From: Gracilariopsis chorda
Lineage: Eukaryota; Rhodophyta; Florideophyceae; Gracilariales; Gracilariaceae
DNA length: 64,000 nucleotides
Assembly: GCA_003194525.1 (NCBI GenBank)
Contig: NBIV01000038.1
Coordinates: 1 to 64,000 of the forward strand
Reading direction: 5' to 3'
Made by a program: the position numbers and the translations under genes. The notes under the pieces were generated by a model, which ran no database searches, was not told where the DNA came from, and saw only the letters and a list, made by a program, of their open reading frames with translations. Below, piece by piece: positions 20,266-54,631 of this stretch; position 1 is the first letter of the stretch; each line of letters starts with the position of its first letter.

Positions 20266-23200
20266 ATGAACATTGAACAGCTGTCAAACTCGTGGTGGTT
20301 TGTTATACTCGCCTACGTCGCCGCGTTCGCACCCTGGACCGCCATATCCAACACAGATTTCATAACATCCACATGGCGCACCGTTCACACCACCCGTCGC
20401 GCCGCCAAACGCAACCTGTTTTGGACGCTTGTGCCAGCCGCCTATGTCATTCTGTACAGTGTTGTAAAAGGAATGGTTGCAGATTATGCTGAGATGTGTG
20501 CCGCTATTATCGCAACTGTGTTTGCATTATTGTTGTCTTGTCGCACTGTTTGGGCGCTCTGGCAGTTGAACCAGTTCTGTTCTTGGGCCGAACGATGCAT
20601 TCTTGCTTTGGATGCTGTTGGAATTCGCTATCACTTTGGTGGCACTGGAGCTGTGGGCTCGACGCATCGTTGTGCTAGGGATGTTGTGGAAATGATGCTC
20701 ATTAATGAAAAGGTTGTCGATAATCAAATTATGCATGGAGACGTTCATTGTTACTTGACCTATGGCAGTAAGCAGTTGCTACGCAGCCGCGATCATGATT
20801 TTGATATTCTCGGTCCGCTTTATGTGGCTGCACGATGGATTGTGGTCATTGGTGCCATGTTGTTTGATTGCATCATGATGCTGTTCGGTCGAAGAACACC
20901 GAACAAGCTGAAACAAGTACCTGTTGAACCGGTTGAAGTCTGGATACATTGGGCATGTACTTTTGCATCGCAGGGCTTGCAACAATGGATCTCACAATTT
21001 GATGTCGCGCTTTGTCCGGCACACGACCCCTTTGAATCCGGCAAACCCGCTATGCAAAGTATGTGTGACCGCGGACAATACTTCGGCGCTCAGGTTGTTG
21101 CATCGGCTTGCATGCACTTGTGGCGAGAGGTTGGACATCAACAGGGTGTCAGTCCGATGTTATGGAGTTGTTGGGATGGCGATTCGGATATCTGTGATGG
21201 GCGCGTTGTCAAGCAGGAGCTTTTCAAAGCCGCCATTGCAAGTGGCGAATGTCTACCTTTCGCAAGCGCGCATGTTCATCAATTGGATGCGACGTCAAAG
21301 CGTCGTGATGGCCAAGTTGAATATGGATATGAGGCGTACCGGCATGTACTGGAATACTTCGTTTCTGAGCTGCCTGTTAGATCAACTTGCGTGCAGGAGA
21401 TGCGTAGGTTTGACGTTGACATGCTCGAGTGGCTCACCATTATACTCCACTTGGGAATGGCATCTCAAAAACTACAACGCGAAAGTGATGAAACTGATAC
21501 AGCGAACCAACTTGTGGGAACACAGGAACGTGGCGGTAGAAAAGCATCTCATAGCCCCCGATCTCGTTTGAGCATGGCCCATGATGAACCTGTGGCAAAA
21601 CGAAGTGAAGAGGCTGTCCGAATACTGGGAAGGCAGGTGGGTATGGGCACTGCTAAAACACAAGCGATCTCGCTCGCCGCTAGTGCGTTTCCAATCATGA
21701 ATGGGGCTGTGTCTTTGCTCTCCGAAGGAAACCGCCTTGTGACAAAGGTCGGAGAGCTTGTTGATGTCTGGATGTCTTTGGTGTGCGGGGACCAGCTGGA
21801 CTTTCTGACTGAGAATATAAACGCCGATTGGAAGACGATATGTTTAGGAGAGCAAGTCGAAAAGAACAGCCAACCTGAGGGCAAGAAGAAGGAAGGGTCA
21901 TACTCACTGCGGCATGTTCACAAGCAAGTGGAGAAGAGACGGTTGGAAGAAAGAATTGCAGACTCCAGCCATCGCTACGGGTATCTGGACCATTTTATCA
22001 CCTTCATGGGGTACCGCATGGAAATAGTACGATCTGTCATCGCTCATTGGGTGAAAAGGAATCCTGGTAAGCGCGGGGATGACTTCTTCAATCCGCTGAG
22101 TAAGCGTCTCACGGACACCACGTGCGTCTCCACTGAGATAGGTCGTGATTTGATGTCCATTCTCAGATCGAAGGTGGATGGCGACCCCTTGCGGAGACGG
22201 GCTGTTCAGTGCCGAATGATTTGGGAGCTGCAAACCTCTTTGGAAAAGATGATATTGTCGTTCGCAGAGTCCAGGGAAACTGCGGCGTGCCATAATGTTA
22301 TCAATTCAACTGCGATCTTGATGGTATTGTCTTTTCCTGGTTTAGCTGTGCATCGAGTTGCGAAGGATCCGGTCTCTAGCATGAAGGATGACGATGGCAG
22401 TTTCCGTATCAGACTGGGAGAGATAGGTGAAGAAGACACACAAGGCGAGAAGAGCAATGTCCCTGTGGGCAAAGAAGTAGAAGGCGTGAGCGTTATTATT
22501 GTACCAATTTGTGGACCGCAGATCTTGAGCATAACGTTGGATGTCGACAAGACTGGCAGCTGCAGCGTATGGATGAAGAGTGCAGAAGGTGAATTCAAGT
22601 GGCAATGGTGGAGGGATGCGTTCATGGGTCGTGTGGAAGGGCTGAAGGAATGGCAAAAGGAACTTGGAATCGGGTATGTAGATGTTGAGAACGAACCTGA
22701 AGATGAACTGAAAACCGCAATGGTGGAGATGACTACACCTATGAATAGTACGCTAAGCGTGTGGAGAGAGTGGACGCCATTCCGAACAGGGTTCTGTAGA
22801 TTTGAGCTGGAGAGTGAGGGGTTGCTTAAGGCATCATATGTGGTCGGATATAAAACGCCCACTGTATCTGACGACAAGTGCTTCTCATACGTAATCGGTC
22901 GCTTGCCCGTGCGGAGGATCAAAGTGGTGAGATATGATGAAGCGGACGACTACGTATTGAAGCATTCGTGCCTTTTCGTGCAAGAAACCTTACGATCAAG
23001 AACTCGAACACAAATATGCGGTCAGGACAATGTTGCCGGAGGCAACAACCAATCTGCAGAGAATGCTGCAAGTAAGTTGATGGACCTGGCGAAAAGGGTT
23101 GATGCACCTCGGGCATTGATGCTCTACGAAACAGCGGCGATACAATACGGACGTCGTGACGCACTGAAACGAAGTCTTGAGATTCTAGTGGGAGGGGGGC

Positions 23201-24666
23201 AGCTGCATGAAAAAGACTGTGCGCGGGCTTCTAGTCTGCTGCGGAGTTTCGTAGGAGCCATGGTATCCACCAAAGGTGAGAGAGTAAAGATGGTTGGAAG
23301 GGAGAAAGACTTTATCTCGAATGTTGTTTTTCCCTACTGTGAGAGGGTTCTGAGGCTCGCGCGTAGCAGGGATGTGATTCTAGAAGAGGCGGCCGTGGTT
23401 CTGAACACGTGCTTGGGGTGTGATCCTGATAGCTATGGAACGCAAGGAATGCTGTTGATGAACTTGCTCGTTTGTTTGTGCCATGGTCTCGATATGGAAG
23501 TAGAAGCACTGTTTGTCAAGTCGGGCGCTGTTGGTTGCATTGAAAGCAGGAAGTCTCCACCGTTTGAGGTGCATGCCAGCAATACAGTTTCCAGTAGGTT
23601 CATGTCTAAGGAGAATCATAATGCGAAGATCGCGCTTCTCGAAAAAGCGATAGCCAGATATGAGAGCAGCATCAGATATCAAGGAGATGTTTCGGGTAAA
23701 AGCTCAGATCACCGATCGTGTTCGGAGTGGTATTATAAGTGTATGACGAGACTTGGGTGGCTGTACTCCGCCGAGTCTGGAGGTGATGCCGGTAATCCCA
23801 GGAGAGCTGAACATCTCTTGACGAGAGCTATAGAAGAAGGGAACGACGTTTATGCAATGATCAATCTTGGGTGGCTGTTGGAAGTTGGGCCGGAGGGCAT
23901 CCAAGCAGATGCGAAGCGAGCTATGGGTCTGTACAAGAGAGCGATTAGGGAAGGTAACCATGTATACGCTATGAACAATCTTGGGGTTCTTCTTCAAAAT
24001 GGCGCTGAAGGTGTTGATGCAGATCCAAAAAGTGCTAAGGAGCTGTACGAAAGAGCGATCGAAGTGGGGAATTATACAAAGGCGATGACAAACTTGGGAA
24101 TGCTGCTGACTTCCGGTGCAGAAGATGTTGAACCAGATCCATTACGAGCGGTCGAGTTGTATGAGAGAGCGATTGAAGAGGGTCGTGATGTTTATGCCAT
24201 GAATAATCTTGCAGTTGTACTTGAAAGTGGCGCAGGTGGAGTTGCGGCTGATCCGAAACGAGCAGTTGAACTGTATGAAATGGCAATTGCAGAAGGAAGA
24301 GATGCGGATGCCATGTACAATTTGGGAATGCTGCTGAGAAAAGGGGCGGAAGGGCTCAACTCAGATGCCATACGTTCCATACAGATACTCTCGCGCGCTG
24401 TGGAAGCTAATGAGGACGTTGACGCGATGATTGCTCTTGCTCATGCATACTGCCAAGGGCTTACTGAAATTGAAGTGGATCCGAAGCGAGCGGAAATACT
24501 TGTACGACGCGCAATATGCAGTGGACGAGGGGTAGAAGATGCGTTTGATTCGTTGCGAGAGCTGTGGAAATGGTTCGCTGAAGGATCGGAGCATGTTGAA
24601 CAGGATGTGACGCTGGCTGAGGAGATCCAGGGTTACGCTGAGCAGTTCGAAATTGAAGTGAATTGA
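20266..24666 (+). CDS. Second giant membrane-anchored Sel1-repeat protein (paralogue)
   Basis: 1466 codons from the ATG at 20266. The frame is open further upstream only from a non-ATG codon; this ATG aligns with the start of the 6066-10766 protein (LSN-WWFVILAYVAAFAPWTA against LSN-VFYIVVLAYIAAFMPWTA). Three or four N-terminal membrane segments, a charged centre with shared blocks such as NLRHVHK/SLRHVHKQVEK and TFMGYRME, and C-terminal Sel1 repeats from about residue 1160 (AKELYERAIEVGN-KAMTNLG). Its repeats are diverged from one another, unlike the homogenised array in the first copy. The pair brackets the deubiquitinase and SEY1-like genes, so the duplication is old and segmental or the copies were separated. 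Function is unknown. Confidence 0.9.
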   Translation: MNIEQLSNSWWFVILAYVAAFAPWTAISNTDFITSTWRTVHTTRRAAKRNLFWTLVPAAYVILYSVVKGMVADYAEMCAAIIATVFALLLSCRTVWALWQLNQFCSWAERCILALDAVGIRYHFGGTGAVGSTHRCARDVVEMMLINEKVVDNQIMHGDVHCYLTYGSKQLLRSRDHDFDILGPLYVAARWIVVIGAMLFDCIMMLFGRRTPNKLKQVPVEPVEVWIHWACTFASQGLQQWISQFDVALCPAHDPFESGKPAMQSMCDRGQYFGAQVVASACMHLWREVGHQQGVSPMLWSCWDGDSDICDGRVVKQELFKAAIASGECLPFASAHVHQLDATSKRRDGQVEYGYEAYRHVLEYFVSELPVRSTCVQEMRRFDVDMLEWLTIILHLGMASQKLQRESDETDTANQLVGTQERGGRKASHSPRSRLSMAHDEPVAKRSEEAVRILGRQVGMGTAKTQAISLAASAFPIMNGAVSLLSEGNRLVTKVGELVDVWMSLVCGDQLDFLTENINADWKTICLGEQVEKNSQPEGKKKEGSYSLRHVHKQVEKRRLEERIADSSHRYGYLDHFITFMGYRMEIVRSVIAHWVKRNPGKRGDDFFNPLSKRLTDTTCVSTEIGRDLMSILRSKVDGDPLRRRAVQCRMIWELQTSLEKMILSFAESRETAACHNVINSTAILMVLSFPGLAVHRVAKDPVSSMKDDDGSFRIRLGEIGEEDTQGEKSNVPVGKEVEGVSVIIVPICGPQILSITLDVDKTGSCSVWMKSAEGEFKWQWWRDAFMGRVEGLKEWQKELGIGYVDVENEPEDELKTAMVEMTTPMNSTLSVWREWTPFRTGFCRFELESEGLLKASYVVGYKTPTVSDDKCFSYVIGRLPVRRIKVVRYDEADDYVLKHSCLFVQETLRSRTRTQICGQDNVAGGNNQSAENAASKLMDLAKRVDAPRALMLYETAAIQYGRRDALKRSLEILVGGGQLHEKDCARASSLLRSFVGAMVSTKGERVKMVGREKDFISNVVFPYCERVLRLARSRDVILEEAAVVLNTCLGCDPDSYGTQGMLLMNLLVCLCHGLDMEVEALFVKSGAVGCIESRKSPPFEVHASNTVSSRFMSKENHNAKIALLEKAIARYESSIRYQGDVSGKSSDHRSCSEWYYKCMTRLGWLYSAESGGDAGNPRRAEHLLTRAIEEGNDVYAMINLGWLLEVGPEGIQADAKRAMGLYKRAIREGNHVYAMNNLGVLLQNGAEGVDADPKSAKELYERAIEVGNYTKAMTNLGMLLTSGAEDVEPDPLRAVELYERAIEEGRDVYAMNNLAVVLESGAGGVAADPKRAVELYEMAIAEGRDADAMYNLGMLLRKGAEGLNSDAIRSIQILSRAVEANEDVDAMIALAHAYCQGLTEIEVDPKRAEILVRRAICSGRGVEDAFDSLRELWKWFAEGSEHVEQDVTLAEEIQGYAEQFEIEVN

Positions 24667-27906: not shown

Positions 27907-28749
27907 TCATTTCTTATTGCTATCGACGTTGTCCAAGTCCTGACCGCGAAACATAGAAAGCATCATCATCCTCATAAAGTTGTCCTGACGGCGTCCGTCT
28001 TCTTTTGCCCTTTCACGCTCCTCTTCCCGACGCAGCTTCTCTTCATGACGTTCCTTTTCACGTTCTCGTCGTTCCTCCTCACGTCTCTCCCTGTCCTCCT
28101 CTATCTTTATCATACGCATGCGGTATTCGTCATCTCGTCGACTCTGTTCATGGAGCATGTTCATTCGGTATAGCTCAATTTAATCTTGGTCTGTGGAATG
28201 GCTTTCTCTTTTCCCAGCGTTGGCTCGAGTGTTCCGTTTAAGAACTAAAGGTCTAGGGGTAATTGATTTTGATGGCGGAGTACGTGCTGTCTCCGGCACT
28301 TCAGAGTCTGTAACTCCAATTTGAAAAGGATCTTCCAGAACCCTGTCGAGGCTTTGCCTTTCCTCGTTAACATCTGCATGATCGCAATCGTTTGGTTGAT
28401 ATATTTGCGCTATGGAGTTGACGTGAGTACCCTCTTGCACATCGCTCTCTTGTTCCGTCCCATCACCAAGGTCCGCTCTTTCCTTCATTGCTTCTCTGAT
28501 TGCTTTGGCCTTTTTAACCTCCCGCGGAATGGTCGGATCACCAGTTGGAACCATTTGACGGTGCAAGCTTGAGAACTTACTTTTCAACGAGTCTGCGTTC
28601 CTTTGAGTACTAGGAAACCTAGACGAATGAATTCGTGCTACTGTGTACCACTCCATGGCGCCAATAGGTAGGTGCTCTTCAAGCACATCCAAGAGACTAT
28701 CAACTTCAGTTTTGCTGAATCCATTGCCTCTCCCTGCGGTACTCTTACC
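27907..28749 (-). pseudogene. Myb/SANT-like DNA-binding protein of the Harbinger element, 3' part
   Basis: Read on the minus strand from the LTR border, the frame gives a SANT-like trihelix segment (FSKTEVDSLLDVLEEHLP, later MEWYTVARIHSS and NADSLKSKFSSLHRQM), an acidic linker, a TAA stop at 28180-28182 and, in the same frame, a charged Glu/Arg-rich coiled coil ending at 27907. Such proteins accompany PIF/Harbinger transposases and bind the element ends. The first exon-like part lies at 40339-40748 beyond the inserted copy B; joining at the target duplication keeps the frame. The LTR end supplies an in-frame ATG at 28764, so a 194-residue truncated protein could in principle be made. Confidence 0.78.
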
Positions 28750-29662
28750 TGTAGTGCAATACATTCCCGCGTACGGGCGATGGTGAAACTCATATCTGAG
28801 GTGTACTCGGTGCGAGCGATGAAGCGGGATGCATGAATTTTAGCCCCCGTTTACCGGGCTAATTAGCGGTCGGGTTACTCAGGGTGGTTATGGGAACATT
28901 CATATTTTGTGGTACTTGCCTGGCAAGGGTGGTGGACACGTGGCTACAGCCCCGGCCAGGAGGCCCAAAACGGCTACTTATTTTAGTGTAGTTTAGGGGT
29001 TAATTTTACTTAGGCTAGTGCACTACCTACTGTACTGCACTGAGCTAGTACTTGAGCGTCGGCCGCACGACGGCGAGCTCACCAAGAAAAGAAGAGAGTG
29101 TTCGGCTCTGACTCTATTCGCCATGCGAAGTGTCTAACTCCTCGCGGAGGTACACCGCTTGCCCGGTAGTTTCACCCGACTCGCACCACCGAGGAGACCG
29201 TGCTCGTCGTACCCAGTGGGTTGTGACCACTCGTGGTATTCATTGTTGTCGTGTGACCGCCCGTACAGGCCCTATCTCCGCCCCAGTTTTGGGTATTGAT
29301 ATTACGGACGTGTGTCGTGAGACCGTGAGACCATCTCTTCCCCTCATATCCCCTAACCGCCGCGCGGTGCGTGTTCGTGTGTGTGTATCGGCACCCCCCT
29401 CCGGGGTCTGTTCCCGCTTTCCGCACGCCCCCGTCGGGTGGTCCCTTTCCCTCTTTTGTTCCCCTGCTCGCAGGCTACTTCCGTACCAGCCGTGGTTCCG
29501 ACCCGTTCTAACCCCTAAACCTCCGAGGTACATCCAGGCTCCCGACGGAGTTACACCCGTCATACGGGACACAGAGGGCTCTACCCAGCTGGGCCTACCT
29601 CTCCAAGAGAGCAAGGCTTCAAGCTGCCTTGGGTGCCTTTCCCACACCGGGATTGCACCACA
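28750..29662 (+). repeat. 5' LTR of copy B
   Basis: 913 bp, from TGTAGTGCAATAC to GGATTGCACCACA. The two ends are inverted repeats over 13 bp with two mismatches. It is preceded by TTACC. A frame of about 200 codons at 29130-29759 starts inside it but shows no recognisable protein. Confidence 0.96.
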
Positions 29663-29664
29663 AG

Positions 29665-29680
29665 TGGTCTCCCGACCTAG
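29665..29680 (+). other. Primer binding site of copy B
   Basis: TGGTCTCCCGACCTAG starts two bases after the LTR and is identical to that of copy A. The priming tRNA was not identified. Confidence 0.65.
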
Positions 29681-29811
29681 AACGGGTTTGGCTTTCAATC
29701 CGGCCTGTCGGAAGTCCGCTTCCCCTTTTCTCTTTTATCCCTTTTTGCTCATTCGTTGAGATTCCCAAGCCGTGGGACTGGTGAAGTAAGCCGTGGACGG
29801 CTATCTGCAGT

Positions 29812-31854
29812 ATGCTGCCCACAGCTCCGAGTTCCCCCAGGAATGGTCCGCAACGGAACGCCGCAGCGGCGAGATCACGAAGGTCCGTTCCGGAACAACT
29901 ACTTACCGATGCCGTCGGTCTGGAATCCCAAGGAATCCCATCGGCAACCTCGGTGCCTCGAGCCGTGACAGCTGTGGCCACTACGCCACCTCCGGTGGTC
30001 GAAACGCCGTCGGCTGTCCCCCCGAGACCCGGGTCGCCTAAGTACCATCTCCTCGAGTCGAGAATCGACATTGCCAATGTGGCCCACGCCTCCCTCTCGC
30101 AGCAAGTTACCGAGTTGGAACGGCGATGGAGTGACTCCCTGGCTCGGGATTATTCGGGAGATATTCGTCTCCTGAGAGCTGATGTGAATTCCATTCTGGA
30201 GTGTCTGGGTACTCCGGCTGCCTTCGTAGAAGGATATCGGGAGTTCGTGGAGGAAGTTAAAACCCATATGATGCGGGTAACCGGACGTATGGACACGCTG
30301 GAAGCGTTGCTCAGAGAAGACCTGAACGCTCCGAGACAGGAGGAAGTGAAGGTCATCTCAACCCAACACCGCTCCAGTCACCTCCCCCGTCACCCTGGAA
30401 AGAGAGTTCATCGTTATGAAGTTTCGTCAAGTTCCGACTCGGAAACAAGTTCGAGTAGCTCGTCTTCGAGATCATCGCGTGAAGGGAGAGGCCGCCGTCG
30501 CGGAGAAGAACCTAGTTCGAAGGCTACCTACACCTCCCATGGAGCAATCCGTGCGCGGGAGAAAGGTCGCCGTCATTTCGGCTTGAAGGAATTGAAACCG
30601 ACGAATCCCCTTTACAGGAAGCTGTTGTCCTATCGTTATTACCCATTGGAAGACTCTTCGGGCACTGGAAGTTCGAGAGACACCGGTCGGGTGAAGGATC
30701 TCATACGTCGTATGAATGTGACGATGCTTAAGCAGAAGTTCTCCGGTGAAGATCCGATCCTCGTGTTGGATTTTCTGGCCCGCTTTTTGCAGGAAGCAGA
30801 CGTACTCGAAATGAGTGAGGCGCAGGCATACGTTGCGTTGCCCTACTTTCTTTCAGGAATGGCTGAAGATCAGTACAACTCGGTCAGGGGTTCGTCCAGG
30901 GCCTCAGAAGGAGGTGTTACGTGCTGGCCCGAGGCTGTACACTACCTGCTCAGGTCGTACGCGACGGGAACTGCAATCAGTCAAGCCATCGTGGCGGTTC
31001 GCGATACGAAACAGAAGCCTGGTGAAACGGAAACGTCGTATTCAACTCGCTTGAATAAAGCGTTTCATCGTTGTGGAAATGTGTTTACCGCTTTTGAGCG
31101 TTGCTCCATGCTGGTGGATGGTTTAGATCCTGGTATCAGGGCACTGGTGTCCCGCTACAGGGAAGAGAAGCGCAAGGCGACGTATCTGGAACTGGTCCAG
31201 TACGCGCAGGCTGAGGGTGACACCCTCAGAGCGAGAGACCCGAGGCGTCGGTCGTCGAAGGCTCTCTTCGTCGAGAACGAGGCTTCCTCGACATCTCTCC
31301 CTAACCCGGGGCCATCTTCCGGATTTGCGGATAACATCCAGTATCTTGGCAGTCTTGAACAGTCGTTGGCAACCTCGGGACTGCCGTCCACGGTTACACC
31401 CCCCGTGGTAGATCCGGCCTTTTACGCAAACCCCGGTGGGTTTCCCCCAGCCCCGCTAGCCTACGCGTCGAGCGCCACAAGACACTCCCGCCCGGGATGG
31501 TCCAACCCGAAGCAACTAGCATTACAACCACAACACCCTCAGCACCGCGGAATGATGTCCCACGCCACCGGAACACGTTCAGCCCCGCTGATTTGCTACA
31601 TTTGTTACCTTGAAGGTCATACTGCGTCGCAGTGTACCCTCCCCATTCGCGAGATGTGGAAGATCGTGGGAAATTATGAGAATCTCCCACCGGAGCATAA
31701 GGCTCGTGTCCCGAGTAATTCGTATGAAGACGCAAAGACTGCGGTCCACAATCCTCAAGCTCGAGAAGCCGCAAAAACCGCGAACGGTAACAACCCAAAC
31801 CTTTCGGAACGGGCTCATCCGCACCCAGCGGTCGATTCGGTACCGAAAAACTAA
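29812..31854 (+). CDS. gag: Gag polyprotein, copy B
   Basis: 680 codons, ATG at 29812, about 150 bp after the LTR. Intact. Pro/Ala-rich N-terminus; a helical region (RIDIANVAHASLSQQVTELE); a Ser/Arg-rich stretch at about residues 205-230; the gag core with LIRRMNVTMLKQKFSGEDP and DFLARFLQEADVLEMSEAQ; and a zinc knuckle CYICYLEGHTASQC (C-x2-C-x4-H-x4-C). It would form the particle and bind RNA. It ends AAA-AAC-TAA at the frameshift junction. Homologous to copy A gag through most of its length. Confidence 0.92.
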   Translation: MLPTAPSSPRNGPQRNAAAARSRRSVPEQLLTDAVGLESQGIPSATSVPRAVTAVATTPPPVVETPSAVPPRPGSPKYHLLESRIDIANVAHASLSQQVTELERRWSDSLARDYSGDIRLLRADVNSILECLGTPAAFVEGYREFVEEVKTHMMRVTGRMDTLEALLREDLNAPRQEEVKVISTQHRSSHLPRHPGKRVHRYEVSSSSDSETSSSSSSSRSSREGRGRRRGEEPSSKATYTSHGAIRAREKGRRHFGLKELKPTNPLYRKLLSYRYYPLEDSSGTGSSRDTGRVKDLIRRMNVTMLKQKFSGEDPILVLDFLARFLQEADVLEMSEAQAYVALPYFLSGMAEDQYNSVRGSSRASEGGVTCWPEAVHYLLRSYATGTAISQAIVAVRDTKQKPGETETSYSTRLNKAFHRCGNVFTAFERCSMLVDGLDPGIRALVSRYREEKRKATYLELVQYAQAEGDTLRARDPRRRSSKALFVENEASSTSLPNPGPSSGFADNIQYLGSLEQSLATSGLPSTVTPPVVDPAFYANPGGFPPAPLAYASSATRHSRPGWSNPKQLALQPQHPQHRGMMSHATGTRSAPLICYICYLEGHTASQCTLPIREMWKIVGNYENLPPEHKARVPSNSYEDAKTAVHNPQAREAAKTANGNNPNLSERAHPHPAVDSVPKN

Positions 31855-31886
31855 TCTTGGGAGTCTCCCCCACGGGAGGGGTGTCT
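31845..31886 (+). promoter_or_regulatory. Putative -1 frameshift site with hairpin, copy B
   Basis: G-AAA-AAC at 31845-31851 is followed by the gag stop TAA (31852-31854). The pol frame is -1. Hairpin TCTCCC-CCAC-GGGAGG follows at about 31864-31879. Compare copies A and C. Confidence 0.6.
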
Positions 31887-32726
31887 TCCAAGCCGAAGTT
31901 GAAGACGCCTGAGGCGCCACCGCTTCGCTCCCCTGCCAAAATCCTTACGAGGAAACTGGCTCAAGAAGACGTGAGCTCGGACCACTTAGTGGCTCTGCGT
32001 CGTCCGTGGATACGGTCCCGTAACCTCCGCATCCCGGATCGAGTTTTGGTAATGGCCAAGAGGAACTATAAAGTTTATAGTGACCTCGGTCTCTCTAACC
32101 AGTTCATGGTTCGTCAGTTATCTGTCCTGGATACAGGTGCCGCTCCGAACCTGATCAACATCGGGATTATTCCACCCGCCATGCGGAAATGCATTCGCAT
32201 TGGTCCAAGTCTGGATCTGGCGGACGCTAATAACAACCCGCTCCAGACTCTTGGAACAATTCCTCTGGTACTCAGACTAGGCACCTACGTGGTGAAGTTG
32301 GACTTCATCGTATGCGATTCTCTTGCTGCACCGGTCATCCTCGGTTGTGGTTTCTGTGACCGCTTCGTGGAAGCTATCCGCCCTCGCTCCAGATCCGTGG
32401 AATTGGCCAGCGGTTCGACCATCCCGATTGTACGGAAGCCCTTGCGACACGCCTCCCGTAAACGGGTACCTTTACCTGCTGCTCAGGAAGCGTCCAATGT
32501 GGATCGAGCATCTACGAAGATTCGCGTCGCGGAACCAGTTTCGATCCCGAAGGAATCTCAGGTTTGGGTCTCAGTAACATCCAAACACCACGGGTTGCAG
32601 GTTGTTCAACCGCTCCCCTCGCTCTACGAACAGCGCCGTCTCGCATTAGCAAATGGGATCGTATCCGTCGAGCCGGACAAACCCTTTAAGGTTCTCGTTG
32701 CTAACCTCGGAACTACCACTCAGTAG
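31851..32726 (+). CDS. pol: Pol, copy B, first segment: aspartic protease, ending at an amber codon
   Basis: -1 frame relative to gag. Retropepsin active site SVLDTGAAPNL with the catalytic Asp present, later LAAPVILGCGFCDRF. The frame ends at TAG (32724-32726), where copies A and C have a sense codon (Tyr and Ser) before LVKNQV. The same frame then continues as 32727-36413, so this is a single nonsense substitution or a readthrough site. Confidence 0.85.
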   Translation, partial: LILGVSPTGGVSSKPKLKTPEAPPLRSPAKILTRKLAQEDVSSDHLVALRRPWIRSRNLRIPDRVLVMAKRNYKVYSDLGLSNQFMVRQLSVLDTGAAPNLINIGIIPPAMRKCIRIGPSLDLADANNNPLQTLGTIPLVLRLGTYVVKLDFIVCDSLAAPVILGCGFCDRFVEAIRPRSRSVELASGSTIPIVRKPLRHASRKRVPLPAAQEASNVDRASTKIRVAEPVSIPKESQVWVSVTSKHHGLQVVQPLPSLYEQRRLALANGIVSVEPDKPFKVLVANLGTTTQ

Positions 32727-35700
32727 TTGGTTAAAAACCAGGTCCTGGGCAACATGCTTCCGCATCCGTTGGCTATCCTTCCTACAAAGATTCCGATATC
32801 CGACGTTCTCGGAATACAAGACCCTAAGGAGGGGGAGGAGGTCCCGTTCGTTCCGTTGGATCCCGCCCGGGAAAGTTCAGATTCGACTGTCGAAGAAGCT
32901 CAGAAGAGCACGACTTCAGCATCGGCAGATACTGCGTTAGACCCAGAACAGGCTTTGGATAAGTTGGACCTGGATCACATTAATGAATCTCATCGTGAGA
33001 AGTTTCGTGACATGCTCAGGGACTTTACCGCCATGTGGGACGGTTCCCTGGGGACGATAGGGGTAACCGAACATCGGATTGATTTGTTGCCGGATACACG
33101 GCCTATTGCACAGCACCCGTATCGGGCAGGCCCTAAAGCAAGGGGGGAAGAGAAATCTCAGGTGGAGAAGATGCTGCGAGCTGGAGTTATCGAAGCAGCA
33201 CAATCCCCTTGGGCTTCTCCTGTTGTCCTTGTTCCGAAAGCGGATGGATCATGGCGTTTCTGTGTGGATTACCGCCGCCTGAATGCGGTTACCGTCAAGG
33301 ACGTCTATCCGATTCCACGAATGGACGAGTACATTGACTCCCTGGGGAGCGCAACGGTGTTCACTACCCTTGATGCCAATTCGGGATACTGGCAGGTCCC
33401 TATTAGGAAAGAAGATCGTGATAAGACCGCGTTTGTGTGCCATCAAGGACTATATCGCTTTAAGCGAATGCCGTTTGGACTAACGAATGCCCCAGCTACA
33501 TTCCAACGGGCAATCGATATCCTCTTGGCGAGGTTCAAATGGACCAGCTGTCTGGTATACTTGGACGACATTATAGTGTTCTCCAATAACTTGGACGATC
33601 ACCTGTCCCATGTCCGGGAAGTCTTGACAGTGCTCCGCAACGCGGGCATCACCCTGAAGCTGGGAAAGTGTGAGTTCTGCGCCGATTCGGTAAAATATCT
33701 GGGGCACATCATCCGCCCCGGACAGCTTTCAATCGATGAAGCAAGAGTGAAATCACTTCGAGAGGCGAAACATCCGACTAATCAAACGGAGCTTCGATCC
33801 TTCCTAGGACTTTGCAATGTATATCGCCGATTCGTCCCGAACTTCGCCGACTTGTCAGCACCGCTTGACGCACTCCTCCGGAAAGGACAACCCACCGAAC
33901 TGGACGTCTTTGACGAGGCTGAGTCGTCAGCATTCTCGTCTCTTGTCGACGCTGTAACGTCCCCGCCAGTTCTGGCCTTACCGCACCCGGACTTAACCTT
34001 CGAAGTGGATACTGACTCAAGCGCCCACCAGGTGGGTTGTGCGTTGTTTCAAGTCACGGAAGAAGGAGAAAGACATCCGATCGGATATTGGTCACGTTCG
34101 TTGAACGTTCACGAGCGCAACTACTCGGTGTCCGAGAAGGAGTGTCTTGCTGTTTTTTGGGCGTTGGCAACGCTTCGCCCATACCTTATGGGTAACCATT
34201 TCAAGGTTCACACCGATCACTCGGCTCTCCGTTGGCTACTCGAAATTCGAGAACCGTCGGGCCGCCTCATGCGTTGGCGTCTCCGACTCTCGGAATTTAC
34301 ATTTGATGTCCTCTACAAGAAGGGATCCCTGAATACTCAGGCTGACGCCCTATCGCGCTTAGGAACATCAGCGGAAACCGAACCGGTCGACGATCTGGAA
34401 ATACCATGTTTCATGGCACAATCCCCGGAGGGAACGGAAGAAGACGACCCAGACGTGAATGGGGATGACATCTGTGATGATATTCTGGCTGCAAGCCCTA
34501 CGGATCCTCCGGATGGCCAGGTTGTTCCCATATCCTCTGAGGAAATGATCCGTGAACAACAGCAGGATCCTTTCTGTGCCCAGATTCGTGCCCGTCTTAA
34601 CGGGGGCGCACAGATACCCTTGGCGGTGAACGATCGAGGCTACCTATTCAGGTTGCTGACACGGGCCCCACAGATCGTTGTACCTCACACGCTGCAGCAG
34701 CGCGTCTTCCATCTATCGCATTACGCGAAGTTGGGTGCACATCCCGGCGGGAGGAAACTATACCTGACCCTTCGCAGGGACTTCTATTGGCCTGCTATGG
34801 CATTTGACTGCTATGCAGTTCGCCGCTCGTGCGTGGAATGTGCGAAGAATAATGTGAAACTTCGGAAGTACTCGAAGAAGTTAACACTATTCCCGGCACG
34901 GGCGCCACTCGAATATGTCGCTATTGATATCTTGGGCGAGCTTGTCAAAACCAAACTTGGTTACAAGTATCTTCTCGTCATTACTGACCGCTTCTCAAAG
35001 TTGGTGAGAACAGTACCGCTTAAACGGATTACCGCGGACGTGGTTGCGCGTGCGTTCGTAACCCAATGGGTCTTTACTTACGGCCCGCCGGTACATCTAC
35101 TCTCCGACAACGGATCTCAATTTACCTCAAAGTTCTTTCAGGACGTATGTAGAATCTTGGGAATCAAGAATATGTTTACTACCACCTACCCCCCGCAGTG
35201 TAACGGACAAGTGGAACGATTCAATCGTACTATGCTCAACGCACTGCGCGCGTATGTCGCGGATCACCCCATGGAATGGGACTTGTACACGGACGCTATT
35301 ACGTACGCGTATAACACCCAGGTACACCGGGTCACGACCCTCGCTCCATTTGAGCTGGTCCTGTCTCGGATTCCGCCACCCATGGCTATTGAAGCGCAAC
35401 CGAACGTCTCGGGGTACCCTTCACCAAGGTTATATCGAGATTCCTGGAAGGAATGGTTGAAGAACATGGTCCCTACCGCCCGAAACGCTATGGGAAAAGC
35501 CCAGGAGGCATACAAACAGAACGTCGACGCGAAGATTCGTACCCCGATACCCCAGGTCTCGGAAGGGAATTCTGTCTTCCTGCGAAAGGAATATTATAAT
35601 CCCGAAAAGGAGAAGCGCCACAAGTTGTCACCGATAGTGAATGGACCCTATCGGGTGGTTTCCGTCGCCGACGACACAGTCGTACTGGACATCGATAACC

Positions 35701-36413
35701 AGTTCGAACGCGTCTCACGCGACCGCGTAGCCCACGCGCCTGCGCCCCCTGAGGGCTCATCACCGCTCGTGACAATCCCGGAGGATGACCTCGTAACTCC
35801 GCCAACGGATAATCTGCTTCCGTCCCGCCCACCCGTCTTACCGCACCCGGAACGGGGACTCTCGGATCTTCCGATTGCCGATCAACCGGTTGGGCGCGCC
35901 GCGCGTATCGTGCAACTCACGCTTGACCCCAAACGCCTAACCGTTACTCCGCCCGCGGAGGTCCTTCAGCCTGAACCCACCGCCCTCTCACCTAAGGAGG
36001 GGGAGGGACGAGAATCGATCGCGCCATCGCGGAAGGAAGCTCCGGCGTCGGACGGTGTCCCGTTTCATACGGCTTCGCGAGCGAGTTCCCTCGCGCCGCA
36101 CTCTGCGCTAACCGAGGCCCTTCAGAGCAAGGGTACTGCCGTCACGGAACGCGTGGTAAGCCCGGCACGGGAGAAGGTTGGGAACAGTGGACGAGCCCAC
36201 ATCGGGAATACGGCATCGTCGGATGAGCACCCCCGGAGCAGGGAGGAGTTGAACGCATCGCAAAGCGAGAAGGCCGTCTCCGCGGACCCGGATGCACTCC
36301 TGTCGAGCGAGTCGCTGGGTAGCGAAGGAGGAAGTAGTGAACCGGACTCGGTGTGGTCACTAATGTGGCAAATGATATCTCCGAGCACGGAGCACATACA
36401 ACCTCGGTCATAA
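32727..36413 (+). CDS. pol: Pol, copy B, second segment: reverse transcriptase, RNase H, integrase
   Basis: 1228 codons in frame with the protease segment. RT has FCVDYRRLNAVTVKD, MPFGLTNAPATFQR and the catalytic YLDD. RNase H has EVDTDSSAHQVG, SEKECLAVFWAL, VHTDHSALRWL and QADALSR, so all four acidic residues are present. Integrase has an HHCC zinc domain (HLSHYAKLG through SCVECAKN), then AIDILG, LSDNGSQF and QVERFN supplying D, D and E. A variable Pro/Ser-rich linker follows and the frame ends at 36413 before the chromodomain. This enzyme set makes cDNA and integrates it. Confidence 0.95.
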   Translation: MVKNQVLGNMLPHPLAILPTKIPISDVLGIQDPKEGEEVPFVPLDPARESSDSTVEEAQKSTTSASADTALDPEQALDKLDLDHINESHREKFRDMLRDFTAMWDGSLGTIGVTEHRIDLLPDTRPIAQHPYRAGPKARGEEKSQVEKMLRAGVIEAAQSPWASPVVLVPKADGSWRFCVDYRRLNAVTVKDVYPIPRMDEYIDSLGSATVFTTLDANSGYWQVPIRKEDRDKTAFVCHQGLYRFKRMPFGLTNAPATFQRAIDILLARFKWTSCLVYLDDIIVFSNNLDDHLSHVREVLTVLRNAGITLKLGKCEFCADSVKYLGHIIRPGQLSIDEARVKSLREAKHPTNQTELRSFLGLCNVYRRFVPNFADLSAPLDALLRKGQPTELDVFDEAESSAFSSLVDAVTSPPVLALPHPDLTFEVDTDSSAHQVGCALFQVTEEGERHPIGYWSRSLNVHERNYSVSEKECLAVFWALATLRPYLMGNHFKVHTDHSALRWLLEIREPSGRLMRWRLRLSEFTFDVLYKKGSLNTQADALSRLGTSAETEPVDDLEIPCFMAQSPEGTEEDDPDVNGDDICDDILAASPTDPPDGQVVPISSEEMIREQQQDPFCAQIRARLNGGAQIPLAVNDRGYLFRLLTRAPQIVVPHTLQQRVFHLSHYAKLGAHPGGRKLYLTLRRDFYWPAMAFDCYAVRRSCVECAKNNVKLRKYSKKLTLFPARAPLEYVAIDILGELVKTKLGYKYLLVITDRFSKLVRTVPLKRITADVVARAFVTQWVFTYGPPVHLLSDNGSQFTSKFFQDVCRILGIKNMFTTTYPPQCNGQVERFNRTMLNALRAYVADHPMEWDLYTDAITYAYNTQVHRVTTLAPFELVLSRIPPPMAIEAQPNVSGYPSPRLYRDSWKEWLKNMVPTARNAMGKAQEAYKQNVDAKIRTPIPQVSEGNSVFLRKEYYNPEKEKRHKLSPIVNGPYRVVSVADDTVVLDIDNQFERVSRDRVAHAPAPPEGSSPLVTIPEDDLVTPPTDNLLPSRPPVLPHPERGLSDLPIADQPVGRAARIVQLTLDPKRLTVTPPAEVLQPEPTALSPKEGEGRESIAPSRKEAPASDGVPFHTASRASSLAPHSALTEALQSKGTAVTERVVSPAREKVGNSGRAHIGNTASSDEHPRSREELNASQSEKAVSADPDALLSSESLGSEGGSSEPDSVWSLMWQMISPSTEHIQPRS
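32826..32841 (+). other. Internal polypurine tract 1, copy B
   Basis: AAGGAGGGGGAGGAGG in the protease-RT linker, encoding KEGEE. Same codons as in copies A and C. Confidence 0.5.
35994..36008 (+). other. Internal polypurine tract 2, copy B
   Basis: AAGGAGGGGGAGGGA in the integrase-chromodomain linker, encoding KEGEG. Counterpart of 60345 in copy C. Confidence 0.5.
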
Positions 36414-36960
36414 CCAGTTTCGTGGTGAGCTGAAAAGCAACCGCGGACACGGAGAGTGTGGTTGACACTGCGTGCGTTACCGCAGAGCCCCACAAATGGA
36501 CACTGTGACGCCACTGTCACGCGGACGAAGCCCAAAATTCCAAACCGTGGAAAGGTGTACACGTACATACCGCCGGCCGGCGTCAGGAGTACAGTCAAGA
36601 CCCGCGTCGTGGAAAGACCGCGCGCGACACTTGCCGCCAGCGGCCAGCCAATCACAGTGTGTGATGCATGGCAATCCGCCTCCTGGCGTCGGAACCGTAG
36701 TGAACTGCCTCCCTCACCGTGAACGGTCAAACTCACCAGAGTTGCACGGGTCGCGTGGGAGAAGAGCTCGCGAGCTGCGAGTCAATAGGGGAATCCGGTT
36801 AGAACGGAAGGCTCCCCCCACAAGGAGAGGATTAGGAAGCGGAAAGACCCCAATGCGGTATCAAGTCCCAGCACTCGCAGCGTCGAGGAAAACTGAGTTT
36901 GCCCGCAGGGTCGCGCCAATTTCAGGCAAGTCCCCTCACAGGGTTCTCCCCTTAAGCCCT

Positions 36961-37197
36961 GCCATGACGGGTCAGGAGCCGGCTACGTACGACCAGGAGT
37001 TTGTCGTTGACCACATCGTGGATCACGTTCTGGACTCCAAAGGAGTGTGGTTTTACCAAATCCGATGGTACGGATACCCCCCGGAAGAGGACACATGGGA
37101 GCCCATTCAGCACCTTCCTCGTTCCAAGGTGATAACCTACCACCGCCGGACGCGGTTCCCACTCCCATCCACTTTGGACATGGCCCAGGTTGGGTAG
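36961..37197 (+). pseudogene. Chromodomain of pol, copy B, out of frame with the rest of pol
   Basis: The frame 36472-37197 is not that of pol. From about 36985 it encodes a chromodomain: FVVDHIVDHVLD, FYQIRWYGYPPEEDTWEP, HLPRSKV. The aromatic positions (F, W, W) are present. In copy C the equivalent domain is in frame at the end of pol, so copy B has a frame break at about 36400-36480. Integrase chromodomains direct insertion to methylated histone regions in chromoviruses. Confidence 0.85.
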
Positions 37198-37533
37198 GAC
37201 GATACACTGCACTATGCAGAAGATTCCGAAGACGGAAGAGAAGTCTCCGAAGAGAAGAGGACACAGGAAGAGATCTGGCTACAGAAGGTTACACGAAGTA
37301 ATGGACTGGATAGGGAAACCAATGGTCATTGGACGTCACACCGCCTAGCGGTCCGACCGAAGTAACGGTTTAATGAAGAATACCGCCTAGCGGTCCAGCA
37401 TGAAGATGCTATGAAGAAGAAAAAGAAGAGTCCGGACATACGGATATAGAAGAAGGAAGTCGTTTACCACAAGCTATGGAGCGTTAAGCCCTAACGTATA
37501 TCAGGTGTGTGTGCCACGGTCCAGGATCCTGAC

Positions 37534-39375
37534 TTAGGATGAGCCGCTCGTTGGCGGTTGGTAGTTCGCAGACGCGAAAGCCAATAACTCGCTCACGCTG
37601 GTGAGGTTGGAAGGCGCAACCACTCCAATGGACTGGAGGTGAGCCCTGAGGGCAACGGCCTGAGGGTCCACGGGGACCGGAGATGCGGTAGACGGAGAAG
37701 CAGCCGCACTGGCGGCCATATTCCAGCCATCTGGAGCAGCCACATGCTGGCCGGATCCGTCGAGATCGTCGACCATCGCCGCTCCCGGGGCTACGGCCTC
37801 CTCCACCTCATCGGGGTCGTCATCCACCATTGGATCATCCTCGTAGGAGCCGTGCCAGTCATCGGAAAACATGAACCCAACCGGGTGGCCTCGCGGAACG
37901 GAGCGTGGTACATCGCGTAACGCTAGCGCGTGAGCCCGTGAAGTCACGGATACCTCCCAAGGGTCATAGAAGACGAAGTTGCCAGCGTTTGGATTTCTCC
38001 GGCCTGGAGAGCGATCATGCCTGGAAGGCTCACCGTCAGGGACGTTGGAGGCTGGGACTGTATCCCAGTTAACCATATCGATGGTGTTCAGAAGGCACTG
38101 AAGCTCATCCACATTGGCTTCGGATCCCAGAGGGATATAGAGATCCAATCGGCGGATAACCTGGCGTAGGTGAGGAGGAATGTACCACAGACAGTTCTTG
38201 TCGTACACCTCCCAGAGGAGAAACGCGGCAACGCGAGCAGCCCATTCGGCGAGGAAGAGAGTCCAGTAACCGGAATCCGGATTGTTGATTAATCGTGAAC
38301 CGATGTAGCTGAGGCACGGAGGCATCTCCGCAAAGCATCCCCTCGGGACTTCGAACCTGCTCCACCAATGGGGAAGAGGTGCATACCGGCCGCGCATCGC
38401 GGATGGACGGAGCCTCTCGATCTCGAGATTTTGGTATGGTACCAGGAACCCGAAGCCGGAGCGCGCCTTTCGCTCAAACCGGAGTCGGTCGAAGAAGGAT
38501 CCGCGATGATTCGGACGACGAAGATATCGGAACTCTGCACGCAGAATTGGGCGCCTCCAGAGGAGCATCCCGGCTTCTATTGGAGTGGACCGGAACGGTG
38601 TAGATGGCTGGTAGGCAGCAAGGTTCTCGCAGTATGAGACTTCACCGTACGTACGGTACCGCGAGAGGTCAAAGCTGTATTCCATTGGTATCAGCTCATC
38701 CGGATAACTCGCGCGGGCGAGACGGTCGTAGGCGACCTTGGCCATCCCGGCACGGGCTTCATTCAGCGTCTCGAAACCATATCTGGTGCGCTTCCGTGCG
38801 AGGAACTGTGGCTCTACCGCGATACGCGTCTTCCAGTCGAAGGAGTCGACCAAATCCCAGCCTAGTCCCCCTGGGAGCTCGCCCTCCTCCACATAGGAGT
38901 TGATGAGGTCCGAGTCGGAAACCCATGTGGGGTGGAACCAGGGCGCACGCGAAAAGAGGAGAGCGTCTTCCCGGGGATTGCGGGCCCAAAGTGTCGATGG
39001 TGACACCCAGCCGGCGGCGGTCGCAGTGATCGGTATCGCTTGAGCGGAATTCCAGGCGGCGATACTCGCGGCATCCGAGGCATCCAAGGTTGGAACATGA
39101 GACGATCCTCCAGGCAGAGGCAAGGAGAGGAACCCAGAGGTTGGGTGACGAACCCGCGACCCCGGCGTCGCGGAGGAAGTTTGTCCGCTCGCGAAAGTCT
39201 CCTGCGGGGCGCCCGCAGGCGGGTTGTTCGAACACGGAGTGTTGGTCATAGCAGAGAGGGGCGCAGAGTCTGTTGAAGAAGGTACTGAGGGTTGATCAGT
39301 TGTAACCGTGTTGGTACGGGGGACCGGTATCTCGGCGATTCCCTTGTCGGGACTATTTATACCCTCGCGCCTCAT
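37534..39375 (-). CDS. Antisense-strand protein of the retrotransposon, copy B
   Basis: 613 codons from ATG 39375; the frame is open to 39435 inside the LTR edge but only from TTG. It lies between pol and the 3' LTR on the opposite strand and is convergent with pol. It is homologous to the 614-codon antisense frame of copy C. Shared blocks include APWFHPT, RPILRAEFRYLRR, PYQNLEIER, WEVYD-LW-IP and GHPVGF. The N-terminus is Ser/Thr/Pro rich, the middle is Arg/Trp/Tyr rich, and the C-terminus has an acidic DDPMVDDDPDEVEE segment. No signal peptide, membrane segment or known domain is recognised. Transcription presumably starts in or near the 3' LTR. Function unknown. Confidence 0.88.
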   Translation of the reverse strand: MRREGINSPDKGIAEIPVPRTNTVTTDQPSVPSSTDSAPLSAMTNTPCSNNPPAGAPQETFASGQTSSATPGSRVRHPTSGFLSLPLPGGSSHVPTLDASDAASIAAWNSAQAIPITATAAGWVSPSTLWARNPREDALLFSRAPWFHPTWVSDSDLINSYVEEGELPGGLGWDLVDSFDWKTRIAVEPQFLARKRTRYGFETLNEARAGMAKVAYDRLARASYPDELIPMEYSFDLSRYRTYGEVSYCENLAAYQPSTPFRSTPIEAGMLLWRRPILRAEFRYLRRPNHRGSFFDRLRFERKARSGFGFLVPYQNLEIERLRPSAMRGRYAPLPHWWSRFEVPRGCFAEMPPCLSYIGSRLINNPDSGYWTLFLAEWAARVAAFLLWEVYDKNCLWYIPPHLRQVIRRLDLYIPLGSEANVDELQCLLNTIDMVNWDTVPASNVPDGEPSRHDRSPGRRNPNAGNFVFYDPWEVSVTSRAHALALRDVPRSVPRGHPVGFMFSDDWHGSYEDDPMVDDDPDEVEEAVAPGAAMVDDLDGSGQHVAAPDGWNMAASAAASPSTASPVPVDPQAVALRAHLQSIGVVAPSNLTSVSELLAFASANYQPPTSGSS

Positions 39376-39410
39376 CTCCTCACGCCTATACTCACGTTCG
39401 TTTTCGGCCC

Positions 39411-39425
39411 TTAGGGAGGGGGATG
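39411..39425 (+). other. 3' polypurine tract, copy B
   Basis: TTAGGGAGGGGGATG directly before the 3' LTR. It primes plus-strand DNA in LTR elements. Confidence 0.75.
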
Positions 39426-40338
39426 TGTAGTGCAATACATTCCCGCGTACGGGCGATGGTGAAACTCATATCTGAGGTGTACTCGGTGCGAGCGATGAAG
39501 CGGGATGCATGAATTTTAGCCCCCGTTTACCGGGCTAATTAGCGGTCGGGTTACCCAGGGTGGATATGGGAACATTCATATTTTGTGGTACTTGCCTGGC
39601 AAGGGTGGTGGACACGTGGCTACAGCCCCGGCCAGGAGGCCCAAAACGGCTACTTATTTTAGTGTAGTTTAGGGGTTAATTTTACTTAGGCTAGTGCACT
39701 ACCTACTGTACTGCACTGAGCTAGTACTTGAGCGTCGGCCGCACGACGGCGAGCTCACCAAGAAAAGAAGAGAGGGTTCGGCTCTGACTCTATTCGCCAT
39801 GCGAAGTGTCTAACTCCTCGCGGAGGTACACCGCTTGCCCGGTAGTTTCACCCGACTCGCACCACCGAGGAGACCGTGCTCGTCGTACCCAGTGGGTTGT
39901 GACCACTCGTGGTATTCATTGTTGTCGTGTGACCGCCCGTACAGGCCCTATCTCCGCCCCAGTTTTGGGTATTGATATTACCGACGTGTGTCGTGAGACC
40001 GTGAGACCATCTCTTCCCCTCATATCCCCTAACCGCCGCGCGGTGCGTGTTCGTGTGTGTGTATCGGCACCCCCCTCCGGGGTCTGTTCCCGCTTTCCGC
40101 ACGCCCCCGTCGGGTGGTCCCTTTCCCTCTTTTGTTCCCCTGCTCGCAGGCTACTTCCGTACCAGCCGTGGTTCCGACCCGTTCTAACCCCTAAACCTCC
40201 GAGGTACATCCAGGCTCCCGACGGAGTTACACCCGTCATACGGGACACGGAGGGCTCTACCCAGCTGGGCCTACCTCTCCAAGAGAGCAAGGCTTCGAGC
40301 TGCCTTGGGTGCCTTTCCCACACCGGGATTGCACCACA
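39426..40338 (+). repeat. 3' LTR of copy B
   Basis: 913 bp, same ends as 28750-29662, followed by the target duplication TTACC (40339-40343). Confidence 0.96.
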
Positions 40339-40748
40339 TTACCAACCTTGTGCTTTGGCTTTCTCACACCTTTGCTCGCTTTGAGGGGTGCAGTGGGCAT
40401 TGGAGCAGCGCTTTCGAAGCGCTGGGGAGCACGCGGCGGAAGACCGTTTTGTGAGATCCTGTGCTGATTGTTCGAATCACTCTGGCGATAATAAGCATCA
40501 TGTGGTGGGCATGTTGTATACTGATTCGCACTACCCAGATGAGACAGGTTGGTACTATTTGGGATCGAATTGAGGGTGTCACGATCACTCGATGGGTCCG
40601 GTACGGCGGAAAATACGCGAGTCTGCGGTGAGGCTGCAAATTGTTGCAACGAATTTGTCGTAGGAGTTGAGACCATTTGTGTTGTTTGAATAGCTCGGTT
40701 TGTCCCAACGTGCGAGCAAATATCACTGTCGCTTGGCGGAGCACTCAT
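40339..40748 (-). pseudogene. Myb/SANT-like protein of the Harbinger element, 5' part
   Basis: Minus-strand frame from ATG 40748 (MSAPPSDSDICSH) to the LTR border. It is Ser/Pro/Asn rich and ends with a basic stretch, SKGVRKPKHKVG. The codon at the border, GGT followed by AA of the duplicated GGTAA, continues exactly into GGT-AAG of the 3' part at 28749-28744. The frame is open further upstream to about 40862 but without an ATG. Confidence 0.75.
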
Positions 40749-52723: not shown

Positions 52724-52728
52724 CTAGT

Positions 52729-53560
52729 TGTGGTGCAATGCCTCAAAGTGGAAAAACACCGAAAGACGTCTGGGATCTTCCTCTCACGAGGTGAAACCAG
52801 TTGGGTAGAGCCCTCCCGGAGGTGTCACGGTGAAGCCGGTTTGTAAGACCAGGGACACCTGTCGCGACTTGTGCAGGGAGGTGAAGGCGAGGAATCGGTA
52901 TCCGCGTGAGCAGGGTGTGATCCTCAGTAGAGGTATGTTTCCACGTGAGTGGGGAAGTGTGAGCGGGTGCACACAGGAGGGCCACGGGAAGCGGGATGTA
53001 CTACTCTGTAAGGGGGAAAGGAGGAGAGTGAAGGGAGAGGAGGAAGAGTTTGCGAGGGTGAGTTGCGAGAGCGACGAACAAATAAGGCAATGCCGGTGGA
53101 CAGGACTCCCTATACAGGGCGAAACACCAATGTGATTGGAACAATTATACTCCCAAGGATTGGCCTCTTTAGATGTGCAAGGGGGTTAGATGTCCCGTGG
53201 TTTACGGCGTTTCCCTCCAAGGAGGAATAGAGCACGCGCGCAAGCGGTAACAACTAGAGCCAACTCCCCAGGTTGGGGTCCCTTGTTGGGGAAGGTTTAC
53301 TGTTGCGACGGCAGTGCGCCGTCGCAATAAGTACTACCTTCCCAGAAATGGGTGTGAAAATAATAAATAAAATCAATTAAAATAGTCCACATTTCGTGGC
53401 AACATCCACTACTGTGGCCAACCGCCAATTGACCCAAAACCATTTCCCACGTGTCCATACCCACCATTGTGGGGCGTAGTTCATATACACGCTACACAAC
53501 CCATAATATCGGGAAAACGACCAAGTACCAGGAATCCCTCCCTGAGGGCGTCGCACGTCA
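52729..53560 (-). repeat. Solo LTR of the copy A subfamily
   Basis: 832 bp, starting TGTGGTGCAATG and ending GCACGTCA on the plus strand, flanked on both sides by CTAGT (52724-52728 and 53561-53565). It is closely similar to the copy A LTR (3417-4243) along its length. No internal sequence follows, so the body was lost by LTR-LTR recombination. Confidence 0.93.
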
Positions 53561-53751
53561 CTAGTCAAGTGATTTTACATTGCCGTGGAGACGCCTTTAC
53601 ATGCTATAATACGTGTTCGTCAAGGTCCAACAAGTAAACGGAACACCGTGCTTCATCCTCACAATATACATTTCCCGTTTTACCTGCTTCAAGCCCAAGC
53701 TTAGAGCTTACGACTTGTGCTCTATCCGTCACCTTAAAAGATATCAAACCT

Positions 53752-54631
53752 TGAAGTGCAATCCTCAAGGAGGAAGACTCAGCGATGTCCTGTGGACTTG
53801 ATGTTTTTGCCGCTTTCGCGTGTTAATGATTACTACCGCTATTAGCGGGTGTCTCACCCCTCAGCGGATCCGCACTGTGCGCCAGGTGCACACCTGTGCA
53901 TGCGCCGTGTGCCGCCCAAGGCGTGAGTGGACCACGTGTGACACGGATAGTCAAGAGGAGGTTGGCACCACGGTGTGGGCATTTAGTTAACTTATATTTA
54001 TTATTTATTAATTACTACACTATATAGTGGCTCGGCGACCTCGCCCTGACACTGAGTAAACCTCCCCAACCAGGGTTCTTGGCTCTAAGTCTTTTCCGCT
54101 TTCGCGAGTCTTCTACACTCCTCGGAGGTAAAGCCGCGTTACTAACGGTAGACCTATCCACCCTGCGTCACTAGGAGTATCACCGCCTTGGGCACTTGTC
54201 ACTTAATTCACCACCGCCGTGTTCTCGCCCCTGTATAGGGTTTCTTTGTACCGTTTTCCGTGGTCCCGTTGGCCCACACCCCTGTCGCCCCCAGTCGGGC
54301 ATCTCCCGTATTTCCCTTACCCCACTCTCGTGGTTCCTACCCCTTTGTGTGGTTGCTCGTCACCGCTGACGCGTGTCTCTCGTGCCGGTATCCCGTGACG
54401 TCTTCCCCCCACTTACGTGGACTCGTACTCCTTGGAAGGGCTGTTTTCCCATTCGTGGTGATCCTAATCCTACCGTTTCAACTCTCCCCGCTTGGCGTGA
54501 GGGTGAGCCTCGGCTTTACAAACCGACTTCGTCGTGCTCATCCGGAGAGGCTCCGTTCGCTGTGTTGCCCTCGTGAGAGGAAGATTCCGAACGTCTTCGT
54601 GTGTTGTCCCGCCCTCGGTCATTGCACTACA
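53752..54631 (+). repeat. 5' LTR of copy C
   Basis: 880 bp, TGAAGTGCAATCC to ATTGCACTACA. Related to but clearly diverged from the solo and copy A LTRs. A TATATAG at 54021 could be the promoter. Confidence 0.88.

Follow-up and report, generated by a model that had tools for sequence, protein, structure and literature searches.

The three elements in the window

The window, by which we mean the whole 64-kb stretch of DNA that was analysed, comprises the initial 64 kb of contig C38 in a red-algal genome of 91.3 Mb and 1,081 contigs, and the analysis covers this single genome. It holds three related Ty3/gypsy copies, here called A, B and C. Copy A, on the minus strand, is interrupted by the contig start. 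Its LTR (3416-4244, minus strand) has a 90.6% match at 52728-53561, which is apparently a solo LTR of the A type and lies about 190 bp ahead of the start of element C. Element B spans 28750-40338 and possesses both LTRs on the plus strand, each of 913 bp (5' LTR at 28750-29662, 3' LTR at 39426-40338), which differ at 6 of the 913 positions and are flanked by the 5-bp target duplication TTACC at 28745-28749 and 40339-40343. The polypurine tract AGGGAGGGGGA immediately precedes the 3' LTR of B (39413-39423, plus strand), and a similar tract is found in C and, in reverse reading, in the A-family copy L061. Element C starts at 53752 and continues past the window end, which interrupts its 3' LTR; the start of the latter (63890-64000, plus strand) matches that of the 5' LTR (53752-53862, plus strand) by 96.4%. 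The window also contains two large frames with Sel1 repeats at 6066-10766 and 20158-24666, the former with a 114-bp tandem repeat in about eight copies. Elsewhere in the host genome, the phycobilisome linker family PF00427 gave seven matches on other contigs, all above cut-off, and PF00502 one weak match of 28.1 bits; the PF00427 matches point to a red alga as the most likely host.

A gag gene was recognized in A (1137-3281, minus strand, 714 aa) and in B (29812-31854, plus strand, 680 aa), the middle part of the latter being conserved with A and C, and C has a gag frame of 476 aa (54601-56031, plus strand). In B, gag is followed by a plus-strand frame at 31857-32726 that has no Pfam match and represents, by its position only, a putative protease region. 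The pol of B (32727-36413, plus strand) comprises reverse transcriptase, RNase H and integrase according to Pfam, and the same domains are found in the pol of C (57438-61928, plus strand), whose closest PDB match is Ty3 and which ends with a long low-complexity linker and a chromodomain near the end. This linker is very long and rich in serine, threonine and proline, and it separates the integrase from the chromodomain. The Pfam Chromo model exceeds its cut-off both in C (26.3 bits) and in B (43.1 bits), where it matches residues 46-90 of a stretch at 36865-37194 on the plus strand that is out of frame with pol. Both elements thus show the Ty3/gypsy order of reverse transcriptase, RNase H and integrase followed by a chromodomain, as in the chromovirus branch; in B the chromodomain resides in another frame. 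The pol of B had been described as interrupted in the preliminary description, and indeed its frame stops at 36413 and the chromodomain frame is found only at 36865-37194. The motif was found in 28 of 30 family-B loci, and in these the chromodomain frame is open for at most 179 codons upstream (the flank of L059 being short). The family-B chromodomain is therefore unjoined to pol (36413-37194) in the flank read of these 28 of 30 loci, despite its score of 43 bits, and a frameshift, an intron or a separate frame may lie behind this.

Between the chromodomain-bearing pol and the 3' LTR, and in antisense orientation to the other genes, B and C each contain a long open frame on the minus strand. 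That of B is located at 37534-39375 and encodes 613 aa, with its ATG at 39375 and its stop codon at 37534-37536, and that of C is located at 62010-63854 and encodes 614 aa. Position, strand and openness were all reported in the preliminary description and could be reproduced, as both frames translate without a stop. The two proteins had also been considered homologous, and they are 43% identical over 464 aa and contain the sequence blocks quoted as shared. The corresponding ORF of copy A is absent from the window because the contig start cuts this element.

Distribution of the antisense frame in the genome

Whether copy A and other copies carry the frame could be answered from the genome, in which the A family has a homologue that is 54-55% identical to the protein of C. 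A degenerate 8-residue motif of the protein matched 497 times in the genome, of which only the first places were itemised, and its reversed control gave no match in the 91 Mb. In the best-scoring genomic copies, the antisense frame contains on average 0.0 stops in B (30 of 30 without any) and 0.6 in C (16 of 30 without any), whereas the five other frames of the same 60 loci contain 12.7-22.4 stops on average; this sample leans to intact copies because the best-scoring ones were taken. A chance origin of the open frame is excluded. Tallied from the tables, and always among the matches listed, a stop was found in 14 of 75 rows with the B query, in 37 of 75 with the C query (7 of these 75 belong to the A family), in 12 of 74 for the A-family frame and in 9 of 62 for the A-family gag. 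Judged by these tallies in the listed rows, the preservation of the A-family frame is similar to that of gag, and that of the C frame is poorer.

The association of the frame with its element could be followed in two families. In the A family, 15 of the 62 gag genes among the matches listed are followed, 5.5-5.8 kb downstream, by the ORF on the other strand, a count that leaves out three more pairs at other spacing or strand. A chromodomain-like stretch that is 52-58% identical to that of C was found in 28 A-like rows, and in at least six cases (contigs C26, C42, C57, C229, C237 and C584) about 160 bp separate such a stretch from the stop end of an A-family frame. For family C, 84 C-type pol tails were retained from 137 rows after exclusion of 28 A-like rows, 24 second pieces and one 74-residue fragment, and 66 ORF rows were retained from 75 after exclusion of the seven A-family rows and two small pieces; as lower-scoring A-family rows come after the C rows, this listing should be nearly complete. 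An opposite-strand ORF lies at most 800 bp away from 59 of the 84 tails. The remaining 25 have no listed ORF within this distance (C229 and C366 have a truncated match just past 800 bp), which indicates that some C copies lack or have lost the frame, and 7 of the 66 ORF places are without a listed tail within 800 bp.

A further type, E, was found among the listed motif places, and its string occurs in 26 exact copies. The one copy that was read, over 801 bases, has 263 codons free of stops, followed by a stop codon shortly before the stretch ends. Identity of the type E protein is 81-82% with the A-family proteins, 60% with C and 42% with B, and we assume that type E sits in a similar element. 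Together these data support the view that the frame is an antisense protein gene that belongs to a chromodomain-bearing Ty3/gypsy element and is conserved. The gene would have been carried since before the split of families A, B and C and type E, and the insertion would be of common descent.

Selection on the antisense protein

The C-B, C-A and B-A pairs reject an omega of 1 by 163, 278 and 142, respectively, and third positions have changed more than the other two. As dS is saturated in these pairs, their omega values mean little, and the comparison of type E with the A family was therefore used. Over 263 codons, type E and two A-family copies give omega values of 0.132 and 0.118 at a dS of 0.83 and 0.90, with 2 delta lnL of 115 and 128, and the comparison of these two A-family copies (D1 and D2) gives an omega of 0.49. 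Two further copies were dropped from the pair tests: B2 (L062), taken at first as a second B lineage, is apparently a B copy with a frameshift, and C2 (L063) resembles a decayed C copy; a six-sequence tree run that included both gave an omega of 0.30.

Within families the picture is a different one. The number of variable sites differs little among codon positions (177, 177 and 206 at the first, second and third position in C, and 50, 53 and 74 in B), and changes private to a single copy are nearly neutral, with an omega of about 0.89 in C and about 0.73 in B. In C, omega decreases to 0.64 for changes common to two or three copies and to 0.30 for those common to at least four, and in B it is 0.41 for changes common to two or three copies (8 to 8) and 1.45 for those common to at least four (14 replacement to 4 silent). 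This within-family pattern is that of dead copies drifting, and selection shows in the older changes of C, whereas the few older changes of B show none. A dN/dS near 1 across many copies had been named beforehand as evidence against a gene, and it is indeed found for the young private changes within families, whereas the values between families are far below 1. The combination of near-neutral young changes and a low omega between families is as expected of a gene that is kept in the active lineage and decays in dead copies.

We therefore regard the antisense frame almost certainly as a protein gene under purifying selection. An alternative would be that the antisense RNA itself is functional and the open frame incidental, for which a precedent exists in antisense RNAs that regulate other elements such as Ty1, as described in the accessible part of PMC12786077. 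The selection on the amino acid sequence between type E and the A family, with an omega of 0.12-0.13, is unlike what a purely non-coding role would leave behind, and this explanation is hardly credible. The antisense protein evolves faster than gag and pol, with a dN between C and B of 0.63 as opposed to 0.43 for gag and 0.20 for pol.

Properties of the protein

A core of about 400 residues is conserved in the protein; the N-terminus is variable and of low complexity, and the C-terminal part is acidic, with a net charge of -14 to -17 past residue 500. It contains about 50 arginine residues, only 4-6 lysines and 14-18 tryptophans. The preliminary description had recognised no domain in it, and this impression was borne out, as no Pfam family exceeded its cut-off and no NCBIfam or PHROGs family was found; two DUF matches in Pfam near an E-value of 0.1 were both under the cut-off. 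The TRP28 domain (PF04195) gave no match in the Pfam scans of the proteins of B and C and of two A-family proteins. A sequence search of the PDB yielded nothing with alignment A1 and, with A3, two matches at an E-value of about 2 that were taken as chance. Scans of IMG/VR retrieved 3 stretches with P0002 and 87 with A3, and a scan of prokaryote genomes with A3 retrieved 45 stretches, and no relative was among them; these scans were seeded by short peptide patterns, which distant relatives can escape. AlphaFold models reached a pLDDT of 30 for a 406-residue core and of 42 for a 184-residue core and were too poor for use. Relative to Pfam, NCBIfam, PHROGs, the PDB, IMG/VR and prokaryote genomes, the protein thus appears to represent an unrecognised family.

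These searches also bear on the origin of the gene, which could be a captured host gene or the remnant of another element that was nested in the ancestor. Its antisense direction would suit such a foreign insertion, but no relative was found in Pfam, NCBIfam, PHROGs or the PDB, nor in the pattern-seeded scans of IMG/VR and prokaryote genomes. We consider such an origin rather unlikely, and as it concerns the origin only, it would be compatible with the role as a regulator that is proposed below.

The protein could furthermore be an extra structural or particle protein, or the gene could be env-like and reversed. Its size and copy number would be compatible with a structural role, and in the A family its preservation is, as mentioned above, similar to that of gag, but the orientation is antisense and a clear hydrophobic segment, as would be expected of an env-like protein, is not present in the three proteins inspected, whose top 19-residue mean hydropathy is 0.95-1.30. 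The usual threshold for a membrane segment is about 1.6. A derivation of the ORF from a reversed gag found no support, the hhalign probability against the gag of the same elements being 0.5%, and this lack of profile similarity also speaks against a structural protein, so that we judge this explanation to be very unlikely.

Proposed expression and function

The ATG of the antisense frame is separated from the 3' LTR by 35 bp in C and 50 bp in B, a gap that holds no more than the polypurine tract and a short leader. Because of this short distance, an mRNA with an ordinary leader must begin in the 3' LTR or beyond, and an antisense promoter in the 3' LTR would serve this purpose. Neither strand of the B LTR contains a TATA[AT]A box. 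Past the stop codon, an AATAAA occurs at 108 nt in C and an ATTAAA at 159 nt in B, which is weak evidence for transcript ends.

We propose that the 3' LTR would act as a two-way promoter, from which an antisense mRNA would run toward pol. We infer the solubility, location and function of its product, which would be a soluble arginine- and tryptophan-rich protein that aids the propagation of the element by regulating the element's own RNA, cDNA or chromatin state, akin to the role proposed for the proteins of plant antisense ORFs. This reading as a whole, namely an accessory regulator gene whose protein is made from the mRNA of an antisense LTR promoter, is in our opinion rather probable.

The host genome contains two full Piwi-domain matches and two large Dicer-like frames, each with two RNase III domains, and the presence of Argonaute and Dicer-like genes means that a regulator would have something to act on. 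The antisense transcript would overlap the sense RNA, and in a host with such genes the antisense gene would either have to be worth its silencing risk or counter the silencing. The latter leads to the possibility that the protein is a suppressor of host RNA silencing, with the convergent transcript making dsRNA and the protein blunting the response. The two full Piwi-domain matches and the two double-RNase III frames would fit this, as would a host conflict in which the protein evolves faster than pol and gag, but the protein has no Pfam similarity to an RNA-binding or other domain, and we regard a suppressor as doubtful. Still less likely is its boldest form, in which the element would maintain a dedicated antisense gene, driven by a reverse LTR promoter, for a new class of antagonist of RNA silencing or chromatin silencing. 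If it were true, the same dsRNA-making transcript that endangers the element would also encode its protector.

As a separate observation, the genome contains 44 short matches to parts of the Argonaute Piwi domain, many of them with stops (on contigs C483, C648, C777, C944 and others). Many of these pieces form inverted pairs a few hundred bases apart, and on several contigs they repeat every ~8.0 kb. The arrangement resembles a tandem or mobile unit with an Argonaute-derived inverted repeat, from which a hairpin against the host Argonaute could form.

Relation to known antisense genes

In the preliminary description no antisense gene was known from a chromodomain-bearing element, a view that has to be given up. 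The title of Zhao et al. 2011 reportedly describes brtn as an antisense gene. According to the accessible part of PMC4227169, the Boty-like elements of Botrytis cinerea have gag, RT, IN and CHROMO domains plus brtn, a gene that the accessible part of PMC8365987 mentions as well. As the fungal Boty has both, the combination of a chromodomain with an antisense gene is not new. Boty resembles B and C in its chromodomain and in an antisense gene between pol and the 3' LTR and differs in its fungal host, a likeness by description and not by the BRTN sequence.

According to the available text of the review PMC7264820, the elements with an antisense ORF between pol and the 3' LTR include Grande, RIRE2, Retand, PvRetro13 and Boty. 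The Retand lineage, of the plant Tat elements, has antisense ORFs that encode TRP28 in 97% of clusters, as far as the available text of PMC11963269 goes. It resembles B and C in that an antisense ORF at this position is kept across the lineage, but it is not a chromovirus, its TRP28 domain (PF04195) is unmatched by the red-algal proteins, and its region between POL and the 3' LTR measures 2.9-6.6 kb in that text versus ~2-3 kb in the red-algal elements. Grande, with gene23, RIRE2 and PvRetro13 likewise have an antisense accessory ORF at this position; their hosts are flowering plants, and their sequences were compared only via Pfam, the description being again that of the accessible part of PMC7264820. 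In the same source, the Grande gene23 protein is described as nuclear and its gene as transcribed from an upstream promoter, and for HTLV a promoter inside the 3' LTR is reported. The Tekay chromoviruses of sunflower and grasses combine a chromodomain with a conserved accessory ORF, the 5' aORF, according to the part of PMC11728184 that is accessible, but this ORF lies 5' of gag-pol.

Among literature titles and abstract openings, in which subscription literature is thinly covered, no report of an antisense gene of red-algal elements was found. In the accessible parts of a survey of plant elements (PMC6317226), the terms "antisense", "red alga" and "Rhodophyta" were not found, nor was "antisense" in those of a dataset paper with two Rhodophyta (PMC8282616). 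The layout is thus already known from plants and a fungus, and what would appear to be new, judged by the literature and databases covered, is the red-algal host and the unrecognised protein family.

The literature that we found on antisense accessory genes of LTR retrotransposons covers flowering plants and a fungus. A conserved case in a red alga, with a protein that looks unrelated, suggests a repeated origin of such genes and a benefit to the elements that carry them. Hundreds of motif matches and several families, with an omega of about 0.12 between two of these, should make the red-algal elements a good system for studying the function of such a gene.
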